From the IMG/VR virus record IMGVR_UViG_3300005293_000016, positions 1 to 22,096 of that record: a stretch of 22,096 nt of DNA; one strand, written 5' to 3'. The translations under genes were made by a program, and so were the position numbers. This document shows positions 2,844 through 18,840 of the stretch, piece by piece (position 1 is the stretch's first letter; every line of letters begins with the position of its first letter). Origin of the DNA: a virus. The notes below the pieces were generated by a model that saw nothing but the letters and a program-made list of their open reading frames with translations, was not told the DNA's origin and did no database searches.

Positions 2844-3229
2844 ACCCACTACAGGCGTATGCGGACTCTTATCGTTTAATGGGTCGCACTGGCGATGGGC
2901 AAATTATGTGTTCAAGTGTCGCGGTTGATATTGAGCGCAACATGATGCCACACGCTGTAACATCCGAACAACTTGAAGGTCTGCGGGATCTTCGGTTGCA
3001 CCACTGGAAAGGGGTGTTGAAGTTTAGCGAGCGTGTATCGGCGCAAGAAATAACCCTAGCGCGCTTCGATAAAGCATACGGGGTTGAGGATCCTGCACGC
3101 CACCGCATAGTTTCTGCGCTTGAATACAGCAAGCGCGTGCATAGCTTTCAAATGAAACAAGTTCAACTGCTCAATGATTTCTTTCCTATTGGCGACACGG
3201 CGGAACATGACAATGCAACCAACCTTTAA
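2840..3229 (+). CDS. Hypothetical protein
   Basis: 129 aa. The ATG overlaps the upstream TGA (ATGA, 2840-2843), with a GGGGG Shine-Dalgarno about 9 bases upstream. It is soluble and probably mostly helical, with no Cys pairs and no membrane segment. I recognise no domain. Its last 17 bases overlap the start of the ParB-like gene, in keeping with one co-translated operon from promoter 1459 to terminator 4372. Confidence 0.7.
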   Translation: MNPLQAYADSYRLMGRTGDGQIMCSSVAVDIERNMMPHAVTSEQLEGLRDLRLHHWKGVLKFSERVSAQEITLARFDKAYGVEDPARHRIVSALEYSKRVHSFQMKQVQLLNDFFPIGDTAEHDNATNL

Positions 3230-4127
3230 ATCCATGCGTCACGACGGCACCGTAAAGCGCGGTGAAGCTAACAGCGTGCGCCTGGAAGACATTCACGAGC
3301 GACCAGGCTTCAACATCGTTCGCGACTACAATTCGCCAAAGTATCAAGAGGATGTTGACGCGCTGGTGGCGTACCTTGAAGCGGGTGGCACCGTTGAGGC
3401 GCTTGAGGTTGTGCCGCGTGCTGAGGGTGGCGTGTGGGTTGTACAGGGGCACACCCGCCGCTTTGCCTTTAAAAAGATGGACGAACGCGGGACGTTGCCC
3501 CGCACCCCGAACAAGGACGACCCGACAATTCTTGAAGCGTGGGTATCAGTCAAACCTTTTGTCGGCAATGACGCTGAGCAACTGTTGCGCCAGGCAACCA
3601 GCACCAAGCGTGCCGAAGTTGACGTGCTCGGGCTCGGGCGGGTCTATAACAAGCTGCTTGGGTTTGGCTGGACACCGCAACAGATAGCTGACCGCAGCGG
3701 TGAGAAGTTGGCCACGATTCAACGCGTCCTTACCCTGGCCAGCGGCAACACCGACGTACACGAAATGGTCAAGGCCGGTGAGGTCAAGCCGACTATTGCC
3801 GCGCAGGCTGTGAAGACTCACGGTGACAAGGCTGGGGCGGTGCTGGGTGCAGCTCTCGTTGAGGCCAAGGCAATCGGCAAGACTCGGGTGACCAACGCCG
3901 TGCTCAAACCTAAGCGCATCCCTGAGGCCCTGGTAGAAGCTATGGGGTTATTGGCTCGGGCGGCATCTGAGATAGGCAGTCTTGCGACTTCCCTGACCAA
4001 TGCCTGCGAGGACTTTGAAGGGCCAGAAGAGGGGGACCCGCAGGCAACCGAAGAGTGCAGCGAGGCCCGAGCACTAGCAGACAAGATCGCAGCTTTCATT
4101 GCGCGCCACGATGAGGTGCCGGTATGA
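3213..4127 (+). CDS. ParB-like protein (ParB/Srx N-terminal fold plus HTH)
   Basis: 304 aa from ATG 3213. The first ATG of ATGACAATG (3207) is in frame but lies too close to the Shine-Dalgarno-like GGCGGA (3199-3204). Residues about 20-90 match the ParB N-terminal domain: an opening strand (VRLEDIHER), a helix (EDVDALVAYLEAGG), EALEVVP, then WVVQGHTRRFAF with the GHTRRFA box (79-85) that corresponds to the ParB G-x-R-R nucleotide-binding motif. A helix-turn-helix follows (TPQQIADRSGEKLATIQRVLTLA, about 154-176). The last 60 residues are acidic and helical. Chromosomal ParB proteins bind parS and CTP; phage relatives vary and some have nuclease activity. No ParA gene is visible, so a partition role is not supported and a regulatory or nuclease role is equally possible. 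Confidence 0.82.
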   Translation: MQPTFKSMRHDGTVKRGEANSVRLEDIHERPGFNIVRDYNSPKYQEDVDALVAYLEAGGTVEALEVVPRAEGGVWVVQGHTRRFAFKKMDERGTLPRTPNKDDPTILEAWVSVKPFVGNDAEQLLRQATSTKRAEVDVLGLGRVYNKLLGFGWTPQQIADRSGEKLATIQRVLTLASGNTDVHEMVKAGEVKPTIAAQAVKTHGDKAGAVLGAALVEAKAIGKTRVTNAVLKPKRIPEALVEAMGLLARAASEIGSLATSLTNACEDFEGPEEGDPQATEECSEARALADKIAAFIARHDEVPV

Positions 4128-8137: not shown

Positions 8138-8158
8138 CGTTAAAATAAGGCAATGACA

Positions 8159-10780
8159 ATGCTCGCAACAGCTTTGGCGGGAATGACCGCCATCAATCAA
8201 TGGTTCGTGTGGCGTCTGTCACCGGACCCGAAAAAGCCGGGGAAATACCTCAAGGTGCCTGCGCATCCTGACGGTCGAATTGAGTTTGATGAGAACGGAA
8301 AGTTAAAAGGGCCTGACGCCCAAAAGCCGTACGCGTGGTCATCGTTTGAGGTAGCCACGGCTCAGCTCACTGCTCACCTGGGGAGGCTTGACGGCTATGT
8401 CTACACGCTCGGTTTTATGGTTACTCGTGATTGTGGCTATTGGTTCTTGGATGTCGATAGTTGCGTTAATGCTGATGGTCAGCTCACACCCTGGGCAGCG
8501 TGGCTCTATCAAAACTTGCCAGGCGCCTTTTTTGAGTACAGCTCAAGCGGCACAGGCATACACCTCATAGGGCGAGGTTGCCCGCCTGCTGGTCACCGCA
8601 CTCGCCCAACCCAAGCATGGATAGCCGCAAACCCTGGCAATGATCTTGAATTCTACACGGGCGGGCGGGGTATCGCGTTTGGCTTGAACGGTCAGGCATG
8701 GGGCTCAGCCGATACACACCTGGGTCAGCAGACTCAATATATTGTTGACCAAATTTTCACACCTGAGCAGTCAACCGGTGTGGCCTTGGTGGGCGATGGC
8801 CCTCGGGCTGATTGGAATGGCCCGACTGATGACAATGAGCTGATCAGGCGCGCAATGCAGTCTCGCAGTGCCGGGGCGATGTTCTCAGGTAAGGCAACCT
8901 TTGCTGACCTGTGGACGTGCAACGTTCAAGCACTTGCAGCCAGCTACCCCGATGAGGACCGCAGCGACGGCTTACCTTATGGTGGCACCGAGGTTGATTT
9001 CGCCCTTGCTTCCCACCTGGCGTTCTGGACCGGCTGCGATGCTGAGCGCATGGTGCGGCTTATGTGGCAGTCCAAGTTGGTGCGTGACAAATGGACTGAG
9101 CACCGTACGTACCTGGCTGAGCTGACGGTTGACCGTGCCTGCAAGCAAACCCGCAACGTCTGTCAGGACAAGGAAAGCGTGGCCAAGCTGGACGCCACTG
9201 TGACCCTGGCAGCAGGTGTGAGCCGGCAAGAGTATTTTGACCTCATCATGGGTTGCAACGATGACGCGGACATGCGCAATGACGTGGTGCCGCAGATCGC
9301 CGCTGACCGCTCAATTGCAATGCTCGACCGTGACTGGCTGGCAGCGGCTATAAAGAAGCGCATGAGCGATTGGGGGTTCCCGGTCAGCATCAGTGACTGC
9401 AAGGCCATGGTGCGCTTGCAGGTGGTTGAGGATGAGGACGGCGGGATCATTCCTGAGTGGGCAAACCGCCACGTGTACGTCATGGCCACCGATTGCTTCT
9501 TTGACCTGATGACCGCCAGCACGATGAGCCGCACCGCGTTCAATGCGCAATATGAGCGCATGATGCCTCAGAAGCCGAACGGCGACCGTGAGGATGCAGC
9601 CAAGTGGTGCTTGCAGCGTTGGAACACCGCCACCGTGGGCGACACGATGTACCTACCCGGCAAAGAGAGCATTTTCAATCATGAGGGTCGTTGGTACGCC
9701 AACCTGTACAGCCCGAGCACGGTGCCTGAAATCGCCCTCGGCTATACCCAAGGTGGGATTGATGCCATCCAAGCGTTCCTGCGCCACCTGCAAGCGCTGT
9801 GCGGCAACCGGAATGAGGTCTATCTAAACCTGCTGGACTGGATGGCCTGGTGTGCGCAGAACCCTGGCAAGAAGTGCCGGTATGCACCGATCATCAAAGG
9901 CATGCCTGGTGATGGTAAGTCGCTCATCATTAACGTCATGCAGGCGGTGATGGGATTTGCCAACGCAACCAGCGTGGGTGCCAAGTTGGTCTGCTCAGAT
10001 TTCGGGGACTGGCAAGAGGGCTCGTGCGTCACCGCGTTTGAGGAACTGATGATCACCGGGGCCAAGCGTTATGCCGTGGCCAACGCGATCAAAGAGCCCA
10101 TCACCAACAACACGCTTAAGATCAACCGCAAGGGTCGTCCCGCTGGCGCGTCGATCATCAACGTCACCAACTACATTGCGTTCACCAACTTTGTTGATGC
10201 TGTGCCGCTGGAAGACAACGACCGTCGTTGGTGGGTGATCTTTTCCCCGTTCAACAGCCTGACAGGTTTGGCAGGTGCGTTGAGCCTGACGACCGAAGGG
10301 CTGACCGCGCATTACGACATGATCTTTGACAGCCTCACCGATGTGCGCCGGGGCGAGTGGCGCAAGTTCCTAACTGAGTACACGGTTAGCGCGAATTTCA
10401 AGCCAAACTCAAAAGCGCCGGACACCGAAGAGAAACACGAAATGCAAGCGGGCGGGGAAGACGCTCATGAGGCCGTGGCGCGTCAATGTATCGAAACCGG
10501 GGCCGTGGGTGTCGGTCAGTTCGTTTTAAGCTCTAGCAGCTTAACAGCGGCTATGAGGACCGTTTGCGTACAGGACGGGTTAGACATTCCGAAAACGACT
10601 GCGGTTAACCACGTGCTCACGAGAATGGGCTTCTCACCAGTACGTCAGCTCAAGTGGGATGGTAAGCCCCATCGTGTTTGGTGGAAGCGTGGGACGGTGG
10701 CGAACAATGACAACGAGACTCTGCGGTCCATGTTGGAGTTGACGAAAATTCAGCACCTTCAAGCGTTGGTCAATAATTGA
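8159..10780 (+). CDS. Primase-polymerase/helicase, replication protein
   Basis: 873 aa from ATG 8159; AAGG at 8147-8150 is 8 bases from 8159 but only 2 from the in-frame ATG 8153. The N-terminal 200 residues resemble an archaeo-eukaryotic primase (PrimPol): YWFLDVDSC with D98 and D100, SSSGTGIHL with H135, and DLEFYTGGRGIAF with E164 are the likely catalytic positions. A helical linker follows. The C-terminal part (about 530-720) is a superfamily-3/D5-like ATPase: Walker A GMPGDGKS (581-588), an acidic Walker B-like AFEELMI, a sensor region around NVTNYIAFTN and Arg finger DNDRRWW. Similar primase-helicase fusions, including the NrS-1 phage type, start and unwind phage DNA. The adjacent repeat array at 10781 is a natural candidate target. 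The last 100 residues look like a winged-helix tail. Confidence 0.85.
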   Translation: MLATALAGMTAINQWFVWRLSPDPKKPGKYLKVPAHPDGRIEFDENGKLKGPDAQKPYAWSSFEVATAQLTAHLGRLDGYVYTLGFMVTRDCGYWFLDVDSCVNADGQLTPWAAWLYQNLPGAFFEYSSSGTGIHLIGRGCPPAGHRTRPTQAWIAANPGNDLEFYTGGRGIAFGLNGQAWGSADTHLGQQTQYIVDQIFTPEQSTGVALVGDGPRADWNGPTDDNELIRRAMQSRSAGAMFSGKATFADLWTCNVQALAASYPDEDRSDGLPYGGTEVDFALASHLAFWTGCDAERMVRLMWQSKLVRDKWTEHRTYLAELTVDRACKQTRNVCQDKESVAKLDATVTLAAGVSRQEYFDLIMGCNDDADMRNDVVPQIAADRSIAMLDRDWLAAAIKKRMSDWGFPVSISDCKAMVRLQVVEDEDGGIIPEWANRHVYVMATDCFFDLMTASTMSRTAFNAQYERMMPQKPNGDREDAAKWCLQRWNTATVGDTMYLPGKESIFNHEGRWYANLYSPSTVPEIALGYTQGGIDAIQAFLRHLQALCGNRNEVYLNLLDWMAWCAQNPGKKCRYAPIIKGMPGDGKSLIINVMQAVMGFANATSVGAKLVCSDFGDWQEGSCVTAFEELMITGAKRYAVANAIKEPITNNTLKINRKGRPAGASIINVTNYIAFTNFVDAVPLEDNDRRWWVIFSPFNSLTGLAGALSLTTEGLTAHYDMIFDSLTDVRRGEWRKFLTEYTVSANFKPNSKAPDTEEKHEMQAGGEDAHEAVARQCIETGAVGVGQFVLSSSSLTAAMRTVCVQDGLDIPKTTAVNHVLTRMGFSPVRQLKWDGKPHRVWWKRGTVANNDNETLRSMLELTKIQHLQALVNN

Positions 10781-11098
10781 TCAGGTCCCAAGGGTAACAA
10801 GTAGGTCCCAGGTTAAAACGACTTGGGACCCGCTGAGAGCCCCGGTTTATATAGCTTTCTTCTCTTTTAGGTCCCAAGGTCCCAAGTAGAAGTAAAAGTA
10901 GCTACACACACAAGAGACTCACAATTCTGTATAGGTGGTCATCATTTATACTCGTGTATGTCTCGTACATTATGCATTTAGATATTTTCAACTTGGGACT
11001 TGGGACCTTTTGGCTACAGGCCACGGTTTATAAGGGTTTCAGGGGTAACGGACTTGGTACCCCATCTTGGGACCTTTTCACATTTGAGAGCTGAGATT
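10781..11098. repeat. Non-coding region with nine GGTCCCAAG repeats: candidate replication origin
   Basis: Copies (one-mismatch marked *): forward 10784-10792, 10804-10812*, 10870-10878, 10878-10886; reverse 10822-10830, 10992-11000*, 10999-11007, 11053-11061*, 11066-11074. The pairs at 10870-10886 (forward) and 10992-11007 (reverse) face each other across about 105 bases that are clearly AT-richer than the rest of the window. CGGTTTATA occurs after a reverse copy twice (10843, 11024). Tandem iterons beside an AT-rich segment next to the primase-helicase gene are typical of origins. An operator array for the late genes is the alternative. No credible coding sequence is present. Confidence 0.72.
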
Positions 11099-11872
11099 AT
11101 GAAAAAACGTCGAATTTCGAAGGAAGAGGCTGAATTCGCCAAGAAATACGTCGAGTGTGGTAAACCTGGTGAATCTTACAAATTTGCGTACGTCACAAAA
11201 GGGCTCTCAAATTCTGAGATTAGCTCAAAGGGCTATCAGGTTAAGAACCGCAAGCAGGTCAAAGAGCTTATTGAGACGTTGCAAAAAAAGGTGAGCAAGG
11301 ACGCTGAATTTGGAATTAAGCAAATTCTTGAAATTTGGCAGGACATTGCAACCGCTGATCCTAACGAGCTGATGAGCAACTTGAGGCGCTGTTGCCGACA
11401 TTGCTACGGGCGTGGTCACCTTTATCAGTGGAAGGACAAAGCGGAATTCGCGTTCGTGTTGGGCCAGGCACTTAAAAGCAAGCCAGGTAAGGGTGAACCC
11501 CGGCAGGCCATCCCGAGTGATGAGGGCGGCTATGGTTTCAACTTCACGTTCCGCCCTCATCCTGAGTGCACCGAGTGCAAAGGTGAGGGGCATCTAGATA
11601 CGTTCTTTGCTGACACCCGCAAACTGAGCCGTGCAGGCCGGCGCCTGTACGCAGGGGTCAAGCAGACCGCGCAGGGGATGCAGGTACTAACACGCGATCA
11701 GGATGCAGCGCTTGCCAACCTGGCCAAGTTCCACGGTATGACGCCTGACAACCTGCGCGTAACTGGCGCTAACGGTGAGCCATTAGTAACTGCTACTATG
11801 CCGCTACCGGCTGACCCGGTTGAGGCCGCGAACGTTTACGCGGAATTCATCAAAAAGAACGCAAGGGGATGA
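11099..11872 (+). CDS. Terminase small subunit with zinc finger
   Basis: 257 aa from ATG 11099. The frame is open upstream to a TTG at 11000, but that lies within the repeat array. Residues 1-60 match the terminase small subunit (Terminase_2/XtmA type) DNA-binding start: KKRRISKEEAEFAKKYVEC, then an HTH-like part ending in VKNRKQVKELIE. Next come ILEIWQDIATADPNEL and a zinc finger split by an insert: RRCCRHCYGRGH (C98/C99, C102) and HPECTECKGEGH (C157, C160), a known feature of this group. The protein recognises phage DNA and passes it to the large subunit. Unusually, six small genes separate it from the large subunit. The start has only a weak Shine-Dalgarno. Confidence 0.9.
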   Translation: MKKRRISKEEAEFAKKYVECGKPGESYKFAYVTKGLSNSEISSKGYQVKNRKQVKELIETLQKKVSKDAEFGIKQILEIWQDIATADPNELMSNLRRCCRHCYGRGHLYQWKDKAEFAFVLGQALKSKPGKGEPRQAIPSDEGGYGFNFTFRPHPECTECKGEGHLDTFFADTRKLSRAGRRLYAGVKQTAQGMQVLTRDQDAALANLAKFHGMTPDNLRVTGANGEPLVTATMPLPADPVEAANVYAEFIKKNARG

Positions 11873-16850: not shown

Positions 16851-17692
16851 TCAAAAAGAAGGTGCGTCTTGTGCGCCGGCCAGACCCGCTAGGTACTGAG
16901 TCTAAGCGGGCGTTGACCCTCAAGCCCTCGGTGTCGGTGGGGGCTGCGTACGCTCGCGAGCTGGAAGCGCTCACCGCCGAAATGCACGCTGAGGTTGCCA
17001 AGGCAGTATTGGCCGAGTTTTCAAATACTGCCGCAGCAGACGCTGCCGATGATTTCTGGTCGCGGCTTGCTAAACGCCTGGCTTCCAAGTTCGCAGCGAA
17101 AGCAACGCCGTTGGCCACGGGGTTTCTAACTCGCGTAGACCGCAACGCAACCACCAACCTTGAGCGGTCCCTAAAGTCAACGAGCGCCGATATGACGCTC
17201 AAGATGAAAAACACGCCTGCGGTCACAAAGGCTATCAAGTCGCGCATTGCTGACAACGTTGACTTGATTACTCGCATACCCGCTGAGTTTCTGGACAAGG
17301 TAAAGCAGGACGTCAACGATTCGCTGCGTAAGGGTAACGGCCTGGCTGACCTTCAACCCAAGATGGAAGAGCGGTATGGGGAGGCCAAGAGGCACGCGCA
17401 GTTGGTGGCCCTTGACCAGACGCGCAAGGCGTACACCGCGATCAACAGCGAGCGTATGCGCGCCAACGGGGTCACCAAGTTTGAGTGGGTGCACAGTGGT
17501 GGTAGCCAAGAGCCGCGCCCGTATCACATGCACTCACCTGCGCAGGGTGGTTTGAACGGTGGGATATTCGACATCAACGACCCGCCCATTATCGACAAGA
17601 AAACCGGCGAGCGTGGATTGCCTGGTGACGATTACAATTGCCGCTGTACAATGCGACCAATAGTTACGTTTGACGATGAGGACGACGAATAA
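16847..17692 (+). CDS. Phage head morphogenesis protein (SPP1 gp7/Mu gpF-like)
   Basis: 281 aa; GTG start overlaps the portal stop. The N-terminal two-thirds are helical. The conserved C-terminal domain starts near residue 180: HAQLVALDQTRKAYTAINSERMRANGVTKFEWVHSGG, then EPRPYHM and the ending LPGDDYNCRCTMRPIV with C265 and C267. These are the signature R/D-Q, W-x-H-S and P-G-x-x-x-N-C-R-C elements of this minor head protein family, whose members sit near the portal and may be ejected with DNA. Position right after the portal gene is standard. Confidence 0.92.
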   Translation: MIKKKVRLVRRPDPLGTESKRALTLKPSVSVGAAYARELEALTAEMHAEVAKAVLAEFSNTAAADAADDFWSRLAKRLASKFAAKATPLATGFLTRVDRNATTNLERSLKSTSADMTLKMKNTPAVTKAIKSRIADNVDLITRIPAEFLDKVKQDVNDSLRKGNGLADLQPKMEERYGEAKRHAQLVALDQTRKAYTAINSERMRANGVTKFEWVHSGGSQEPRPYHMHSPAQGGLNGGIFDINDPPIIDKKTGERGLPGDDYNCRCTMRPIVTFDDEDDE

Positions 17693-18840
17693 TGGCGAGC
17701 ACGCAACGCGTCGAGGATTTCAACGGCTGGTTTGAAGTTGCGCGCAACCCAATCAGCAAGGTTGGTGTATTCCCGTACCTGGGTTCAAGCCTCGGCCCCG
17801 ACATGATCAAAGAGCAGAACCTTGACCCTGAGAAGGTTTACATGGTTTTCCGTTCGGCTGAGGAACTTGCAAAACCTGAGTTCCTGTTGAGCTGCACGCT
17901 CATCCCGTGGATCAATGACCACACCATGTTGGGTAGCGATGACAAGGGCTACACGCGGCCTGAGGAAAAGGGGATTGGTGGCGTTACCGGTGAGCAAGTG
18001 TTGTTTGATGAGAATGACGAAACGGTTTATTCGAACATCAAGTTGTTTTCCGAAGCGCACAAGAACGAAGTTGCAAACGGCAAGCGCGAATTATCGTTGG
18101 GCTACCAGTGCGCATACGAATGGAAGCCTGGTGAGTACAACGGTGAGAAATATGATTTAATACAGCGGAATCTGCGTGGCAACCACTTAGCATCAGTTGA
18201 TGATGGGCGGATGGGGCCAAGCGTTGCAGTTCTCGACCACAACGACATTAAAGGTGCATCCGCAATGGACGAAATCCAAAAACTCTTGGCCGCATTGGCC
18301 GAGGCAATTGCAAAGCTCGTACCGTCCACCGACCCTGAAAAGGTTGTGGTCGAAGACGAAGAACCAGAAGTCAAAGCCACTGACGAAGACGTCAAGGCAA
18401 CCGACGAAGAACCAGAAGTCAAAGCCACTGACGAAGACGTCAAGGCAACCGACGAAGAACCAGAAGTCAAAGCCACTGACGAAGACGACACCAAGCCGGT
18501 GACCGTCGAAGCGATGGACGCGGCTGTCAACTCCCGCGTGCTGGCGCAGTTCAAAGCCCTGCAAGCAGGTGACGCACTGGCCAAGAAACTGAAACCACAC
18601 GTCGGTGTCTTTGACCACTCGGGCAAGACTGAAGCGCAGATCGCTGCGTATGGCGTCAAGAAGCTTGGTCTTAACGTCGACAAGGGTACTGAGGTTTCGA
18701 GCCTCAAGGGTTGGCTGATCGCCAAGGGCGACCCAAGCAAAGACGTCACCGTGCGCAATGGCATGGTTGACGCAATGGACGCAGCAGACGGCAAGCCGAC
18801 TCTGATGCAACTCAAGCAAGCCGAACGGAGCAAAGCATAA
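17692..18840 (+). CDS. DUF2213-type prohead protease/scaffold fusion
   Basis: 382 aa; starts at the last base of the previous gene's stop. The N-terminal 185 residues match DUF2213: ELSLGYQC with a likely nucleophile S135, and RGNHLASVDDGRMG with H165. These are the typical Ser and His positions of phage prohead maturation proteases. Residues about 222-265 form a highly acidic repeat (see the repeat entry), then a helical part (MDAAVNSRVLAQFKAL...) like an internal scaffold. Such protease-scaffold fusions guide shell assembly and are then degraded. The capsid gene follows two genes later. Confidence 0.88.
   Translation: MASTQRVEDFNGWFEVARNPISKVGVFPYLGSSLGPDMIKEQNLDPEKVYMVFRSAEELAKPEFLLSCTLIPWINDHTMLGSDDKGYTRPEEKGIGGVTGEQVLFDENDETVYSNIKLFSEAHKNEVANGKRELSLGYQCAYEWKPGEYNGEKYDLIQRNLRGNHLASVDDGRMGPSVAVLDHNDIKGASAMDEIQKLLAALAEAIAKLVPSTDPEKVVVEDEEPEVKATDEDVKATDEEPEVKATDEDVKATDEEPEVKATDEDDTKPVTVEAMDAAVNSRVLAQFKALQAGDALAKKLKPHVGVFDHSGKTEAQIAAYGVKKLGLNVDKGTEVSSLKGWLIAKGDPSKDVTVRNGMVDAMDAADGKPTLMQLKQAERSKA
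18355..18486 (+). repeat. 48-bp in-frame tandem repeat in the scaffold gene
   Basis: Units 18355-18402, 18403-18450 and a partial 18451-18486 are identical over the shared length, including silent positions. Each encodes DEEPEVKATDEDVKAT, so the protein gains 16 acidic residues per unit. Identity at the DNA level suggests recent expansion or frequent homogenisation. Confidence 0.95.

Follow-up and report, generated by a model that had tools for sequence, protein, structure and literature searches.

Iteron array downstream of the primase-helicase gene

The window analysed here, a viral contig of 22,096 bases taken at its full length, carries terminase, portal and major head genes. At 8153..10780 on the plus strand it encodes an NrS-1 polymerase-like primase-helicase of 875 amino acids (Pfam PF22763, 4e-18; DUF5906, 1.6e-12; PHROG DNA primase families), the ATG start codon of which was found at 8153 and not at 8159 as given in the original prediction. 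The terminase small subunit (TerS; Pfam PF03592) is encoded by the next gene, at 11099..11872 (+). Elsewhere in the window, a ParB-like protein (phrog_1033, 7e-53) is encoded upstream at 3174-4127, and the protein encoded at 17692-18840, between the portal and major head genes, contains an internal acidic repeat, KATDEDVKATDEEPEV.

The region between the primase-helicase and TerS genes (10781-11098) harbours an array of 9 bp repeats (iterons). Six exact copies of GGTCCCAAG and three copies with one mismatch had been noted within 291 bases, and our count agreed. The exact copies start at 10784 (+), 10822 (-), 10870 (+), 10878 (+), 10999 (-) and 11066 (-), and the one-mismatch copies at 10804 (+, GGTCCCAGG), 10992 (-, AGTCCCAAG) and 11053 (-, GGTACCAAG). 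When the window was shuffled 300 times with a Markov-1 model, no 291-base stretch contained more than 3 matches with up to one mismatch, as against the 9 observed. A search of the entire contig (the 22,096-base record) for the 9-mer found exact GGTCCCAAG only at the array.

The array lies directly 3' of the primase-helicase gene, as originally described; the gene ends at 10780 and the first iteron begins 4 bases past the stop codon. From left to right, the left outer iteron (10784..10792, +) and the copies at 10804..10812 (+) and 10822..10830 (-) are followed by the left inner tandem pair (10870..10878 and 10878..10886, both +, period 8). The right inner tandem pair faces it on the opposite strand (10992..11000 and 10999..11007, both -, period 7), and the copy at 11053..11061 (-) and the right outer iteron (11066..11074, -) complete the array, 25 bases ahead of the TerS gene. 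The periods of 8 and 7 were as first reported, and the core between the facing pairs (10887..10991), put earlier at about 105 bases, measured exactly 105. It is 66.7% AT as compared to 44% for the window, a richness reached by about 0.01% of the 105-base stretches of the window, and is the predicted site of melting. Within it, a box TATAGGTGGTCATCAT containing GTGG (10930..10945) is largely conserved among close relatives only and, speculatively, might be a priming site.

A 21-nt direct repeat, GCCCCGGTTTATATAGCTTTC, is also present in the same orientation once in each half of the array, at 10839..10859 (+) and, with 81% identity, at 11020..11040 (+). No match of the array region was found in Rfam up to an E value of 0.5. 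Cumulative GC skew, which had been suggested as a check, rose through the array with no inflection, and the GC-skew test was thus uninformative here.

Primase-helicase and its C-terminal winged helix

The primase-helicase comprises an N-terminal primase-polymerase region, a helix-bundle domain (HBD; residues 280-336, 8990..9160, +, PF22763), an SF3-type helicase and a C-terminal winged helix. The DUF5906/helicase core covers residues 582-692 (9896..10228, +, PF19263), with a match to the 6k9e helicase over residues 500-696. PF22763 and PF19263 both scored above cut-off, placing an HBD and a DUF5906/D5-like helicase in one protein, and a profile of the primase-helicase matched solved NrS-1-type primase chains in the PDB.

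An AlphaFold2 model of the last 176 residues showed a winged helix following helices, with a mean pLDDT of 83 overall and about 90 in the winged part. This winged helix, at about residues 762-846 (10436..10690, +), is the predicted origin-binding domain. It contains a predicted recognition helix (residues 815-824, 10595..10624, +) and a wing hairpin (residues 827-845, 10631..10687, +), the strands of which were modelled at residues 827-835 and 838-845. Residues 700-875 gave no match to NrS-1 in the sequence searches run. The best Foldseek match of the C-terminal model was Orc1/Cdc6 bound to origin DNA, a weak one (E 4.9e-3), and a fold search of the PDB returned generic winged helices only, the P4 alpha domain being absent among the matches listed. 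Sequence and fold searches thus gave no firm tie of the C-terminal domain to a solved origin-binding domain.

The array in related phages

Relatives were drawn from IMG/VR and from named phages; a scan of genome contigs gave none, and plasmid records gave partial relatives only. In nearly all of 30 core-family loci (the family extending to about 33% identity) an array was present 3' of the primase-helicase gene, one exception being L035, with neither gap nor array at the end of its primase gene. The layout was a common one. Besides outer copies, the arrays had one tandem pair to the left and another, oppositely oriented, to the right of an AT-rich gap of about 65-135 bases. The repeat sequence was uniform inside each array and differed between phages. 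With a de novo repeat finder, the scores of most core-family loci exceeded those of shuffles by a wide margin; lower ones were obtained for L036, L038 and L042, which were read partly by eye. More distant primase families (profile score about 250-430) mostly gave shuffle-level repeat scores and no array, and the array is absent from Acinetobacter phage Scuro and Shewanella phage SppYZU01, both of which differ in the C-terminus.

Iterons were compiled in a table of 42 loci, for which registers and consensus seeds were set by hand and then refined by a script. The iteron of the window, GGTCCCAAG, is shared with L007 and L016, while L008 and L014 carry GGTAACAGG. Other types are GGTTACAAG (a repeat type of the family, also seen in L270), GGTCACAAG (L010), CCATACAAG (L029), CATTACAGT (L034), CCTCTCAGG (L043 and L052), GGTTTGAG (L042 and L184), GGTCGGAG (L200, L202 and L203), AGTTACAGT (L265), TATTACAAG (Klebsiella phage S9a) and AGTAAGAAG (L274).

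Several loci depart from this arrangement. The ORF of L200, L202 and L203 consists of the helicase and winged helix without the N-terminal primase, and is yet followed by the same kind of array (GGTCGGAG). In a part of Casjensviridae (L267-L271 and L274) the array is separated from the primase gene by about 0.4-0.7 kb of extra sequence, probably inserted genes. In a set of distant prophages (L074-L094), for which a phage search suggested a Listeria type, repeats occur just 3' of the primase gene at shared positions but with several sequences (AGTGCAGG, AGGGCAGG, AACTATCC, TGTATAGT and AAGGTGGA); these prophages offer a second natural series for testing recognition.

GTGG was present in 23 of 40 cores as compared to 13.7 expected, the cores not being independent of one another. 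Since it is kept only among close relatives, a priming motif in the core stays a lead.

The C-terminus of the primase-helicase follows the iteron type

Ten close relatives were compared to see which part of the protein tracks the iteron type. Residues 801-860 did so clearly, with an identity of 0.902 within and 0.778 between types (0 of 5000 permutations), and residues 701-800 weakly (p 0.003). Residues 1-200, 201-380 and 381-700 showed no tracking among the same ten, p values lying in the range of 0.5-0.8, TerS included. Two natural recombinants were informative as well. The protein of L016 is 94-98% identical to that of L012 at residues 1-380 and identical to the window protein at residues 381-860, and L016 bears iterons of the window type. 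Conversely, the window protein and that of L014 are 95-98% identical over residues 1-700, but their C-termini share only 73-77% identity and the two phages have different iterons. By covariation, the C-terminal domain of the initiator appears to determine iteron specificity.

Wing residues co-change with iteron bases

As co-segregation of adjacent sequences might reflect linkage, co-changes were counted on a tree of the 42 loci from which the C-terminal domain had been left out, and about 800 alignment columns were ranked. Residue 834 was the top column for base 1, residue and base each changing on six branches and on the same six (6/6, p 2.9e-9), whereas the next best column gave about 1e-3; it was also the top column for base 2. 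For base 4 (9/13) and base 5 (7/7) the first place went to residue 832, and for base 6 (3/3) to residue 841. T815, at the start of the recognition helix, came top for base 8, weakly. In the window protein the corresponding wing residues are Q832 (bases 4-5), K834 (bases 1-2) and R841 (base 6), and from the register of the modelled hairpin all three should face the same side of the wing.

The results for 834, 832 and 841 survived the use of a helicase-only tree and the removal of near-duplicates. Without the Casjensviridae clade, 834/base 1, 832/base 5 and 841/base 6 remained, and 832 lost the top place for base 4; 834/base 1 and 841/base 6 were stable in every robustness run.

At bases 1-2, K834 pairs with GG, W with CC or CA, S with AG and C with TA. 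At base 6, R841 pairs with C, and T or H with G. At base 4, V832 pairs with T and L832 with A, but Q832 occurs with C, T or A, and 832 is thus not a strict code. In the Nazgul-like loci L259, L280 and L283, Arg at the 832 position was found with CC at bases 4-5 (GGTCCGAAT, ATACCGAAT and GGGCCGAA), a pairing that perhaps extends the code.

Prediction of iterons from the protein

Predictions were written from the proteins of further Casjensviridae relatives ahead of reading their DNA. GGTTAC was predicted for L267, L268 and L270, and GGTTACAAA, GGTTACAAA and GGTTACAAG, respectively, were found. GGTAAC was predicted for L269 and L271, which carry GGTAACAGA and GGTAACAAA. For L265 the prediction was not-GG/T/C and the iteron AGTTACAGT, and for L274 not-GG/A/not-C and AGTAAGAAG. 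With iteron registers assigned by eye, the predictions were correct in 7 of 7 loci, 6 of them nonredundant, and the probability for those 6 under base rates, relatedness ignored, was about 7e-7. Psp6 (residue L832, GGTAACAAG) and Silvanus (residue V832, GGTTACAGG) fit too, protein and DNA having been read together in these two. The outcome suggests that a few wing-loop residues set the letters of the repeat, enough to predict unseen repeats from the protein.

Putative fossils of a specificity switch

The array of the window also contains two copies of a foreign GGTAAC type, absent from the original prediction: GGTAACAAG at 10793..10801 (+), in register with the iterons of L008 and L014, and GGTAACGGA at 11044..11052 (+), likewise in register with the array. 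Such copies recur at matching positions in L007 and L016 (+12 and about +262 after the gene, as in the window), and the three arrays contain no further GGTAAC. In L008 and L014, these two places hold their native GGTAAC iterons. Moreover, the adjoining GGTACCAAG of the window (11053..11061, -) combines base 4 of the old type with base 5 of the new, and L007 and L016 have GGTCCCAAG there. On the simplest reading of these sequences, the two copies are apparently fossils of an incomplete switch of specificity from GGTAAC to GGTCCC; alternatively, they may hold a special role.

Alternative explanations for the array

In the window phage, as in its close relatives, terS follows closely on the array, which puts the array in a usual place of cos, as would be expected if the repeats were binding sites of the terminase small subunit (cosB or pac type) for packaging. 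The repeat type, however, does not follow TerS (identity 0.809 within and 0.814 between types in the 10 close relatives, p 0.50). In distant relatives the array is followed not by terS but by an amidase-like gene (L038), an endolysin gene (Silvanus) or others (L031-L033), the array staying with the primase, and cos overhangs are annotated beyond the array in the BcepNazgul and PatoteraRojo records. Packaging sites are thus a highly improbable explanation. Initiators of iteron replicons often double as transcription regulators, and the primase-helicase, or another phage protein, could bind the repeats to control transcription of the late operon or its own gene in place of replication; the array indeed sits in the gap ahead of the structural operon. 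Two weak terminator-like sites were found in the array region. Sigma-70-like promoters, on the other hand, numbered 0 there (0.7 in shuffles), the gene after the array differs between phages, and an AT-rich stretch with an iteron set on each side, located 3' of a helicase gene, is the layout of proven SaPI/PICI origins (PMC6092414), all of which makes a purely regulatory array unlikely.

Two further explanations were weighed. The folding of the strand is far stronger than that of shuffled sequences (z -4.97), and the origin of pRN1 is a stem-loop 3' of orf904 (PMC4234260). The facing repeats could accordingly make up a large stem-loop of DNA serving as origin, like those suggested for pRN1 and phage BIP-1, in which the structure and not the sequence is recognised. 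The strong fold, however, follows from the copies being inverted and facing, and a pure hairpin predicts neither same-strand tandem copies changing in step nor the co-change of specific bases with wing residues; we consider it very improbable. The co-segregation of C-terminus and iterons could also be due to physical linkage only, the gene end and the gap recombining as one block. The two are adjacent, and intragenic recombination is evident in L016 and in the window phage. Yet single wing positions beat every neighbouring column of the same linked domain across deep branches, and the predictions held in a different phage family, leaving little probability to linkage alone.

Two other candidates were tried and rejected. 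The repeats were considered as the NrS-1 template motif TTTGGTTA, which was dropped as the specificity tracks the C-terminus and not the HBD. In phage BPP-1 (L320, NC_005357 26300-30200), facing tandem pairs of GTTTGCCTC are present about 0.47 kb 3' of bbp29, between the primase gene and terS, and are unmentioned in the consulted passages of the stem-loop origin paper on the near-identical BIP-1. Given the distance of about 0.47 kb, the facing iteron pair is probably not the BIP-1 stem-loop element of PMC4234260.

Proposed origin and recognition code

Comparative evidence strongly supports an iteron-type origin served by the adjacent primase-helicase, with paired arrays around an AT-rich core, as was originally proposed: in distant phages the array remains with the gene even where the following gene is a different one, changes in its sequence go with changes in the wing of the same protein, and its layout is that of a demonstrated origin in SaPIs/PICIs (PMC6092414, PMC7581432). 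From sequence comparison and analogy, we consider it very likely that 10784-11074 is the replication origin of the phage, or the initiator-loading part of it, with the primase-helicase as initiator. Its type is best read as an initiator-binding origin of the SaPI/PICI (and P4 crr) kind, occurring in tailed phages with an AEP-type primase-helicase.

By analogy with SaPI Rep/Cch2 and PICI origins, the C-terminal winged helix would bind each 9-bp iteron in double-stranded form; bases 1-6 would be read by the wing, while the 3' end would probably fall to the recognition helix. The protein bound in the two opposed sets would then assemble SF3 helicase rings on each side of the AT-rich core, providing two-sided loading; the rings would melt the core, and the N-terminal primase-polymerase would begin DNA synthesis there. 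That priming takes place at the GTGG box of the core is a guess, made because GTGG is a priming motif of NrS-1 polymerase in vitro (PMC8718748). In a switch of specificity, changes of residues 832, 834 and 841 would go along with a concerted replacement of the repeats; many initiator-origin pairs, probably not interchangeable, would arise in this way.

We think it likely, with somewhat less confidence than for the origin itself, that these phages possess an evolvable origin-recognition code, in which iteron bases are specified by 832, 834 and 841 on one wing face together with the start of the recognition helix, making origin identity predictable from the protein. Switches would proceed by wing changes and stepwise conversion of the array, leaving fossils like the two GGTAAC copies. 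If the code is true, many mutually incompatible phage replicons would exist on one shared replicase scaffold, and the joint change in specificity of an initiator and its many repeats becomes directly testable. It would also provide a route to locating phage origins by protein sequence and foretell which phages (or satellites) could share replication machinery and which could not.

Comparison with known systems

Several known systems share a part of this organisation. In P4, alpha is likewise a primase-helicase with a C-terminal DNA-binding domain, and crr, directly 3' of alpha, has short repeats in both orientations (GGTGAACA type). In contrast to the present phages, the ori of P4 is a separate element about 2 kb past the start of alpha, the alpha primase is of the bacterial (Toprim) type (PMC4234260), and the C-terminal profile of the window protein family gave no match in P4 alpha. 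ORF904 of pRN1 resembles the window protein in uniting an AEP primase, an SF3 helicase and a winged helix, and the pRN1 origin, like the one proposed here, is situated 3' of the gene (PMC4234260). The pRN1/BIP-1 origin, however, is described as a stem-loop without iterons, whereas the window array has iterons, though the strand can fold. NrS-1 polymerase matches the window protein in sequence in its HBD and helicase domains, but its motifs (TTTGGTTA and GTGG) are read on a single-stranded template and attributed to the HBD (PMC8718748), whereas the iterons here follow the C-terminus. In the RepA-ori of V. cholerae PLE, the origin varies in step with the DNA-binding domain, the two are exchanged as one module, and only cognate pairs replicate (PMC8263062). 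Unlike here, that initiator is an unrelated RepA_N protein, the iterons are longer and the covariation is at the level of the domain only.

The closest likeness is to the SaPI/PICI Rep-ori and to SCCmec Cch2 with its putative ori, in which the iteron array is immediately 3' of the helicase/initiator gene as well. The C-terminal domain of SaPI Rep and of Cch2 binds iterons directly downstream of the gene (PMC7581432), PICI origins have two iteron sets around an AT-rich region (PMC6092414), and the iteron sequence varies among SaPI/PICI members as it does here (PMC6092414, PMC7581432). A residue-to-base code for SaPI/PICI or Cch2 was not found in the literature searched. More generally, searches of the open-access literature returned no residue-to-base code with blind prediction, and the family-wide recognition code is what is new here. 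The origin type itself is already known from SaPIs/PICIs and, in part, from P4 crr. The hosts of the array nevertheless differ from SaPI/PICI elements, which are small satellite islands without virion genes: they are tailed phages (siphophage-like, Casjensviridae), the window has terminase, portal and major head genes, and an AEP/NrS-1-type primase is in the same protein as the helicase. This type of origin organisation has been called unique to PICIs (PMC6092414); a PICI-like organisation is present in tailed phages with an AEP-type primase-helicase.
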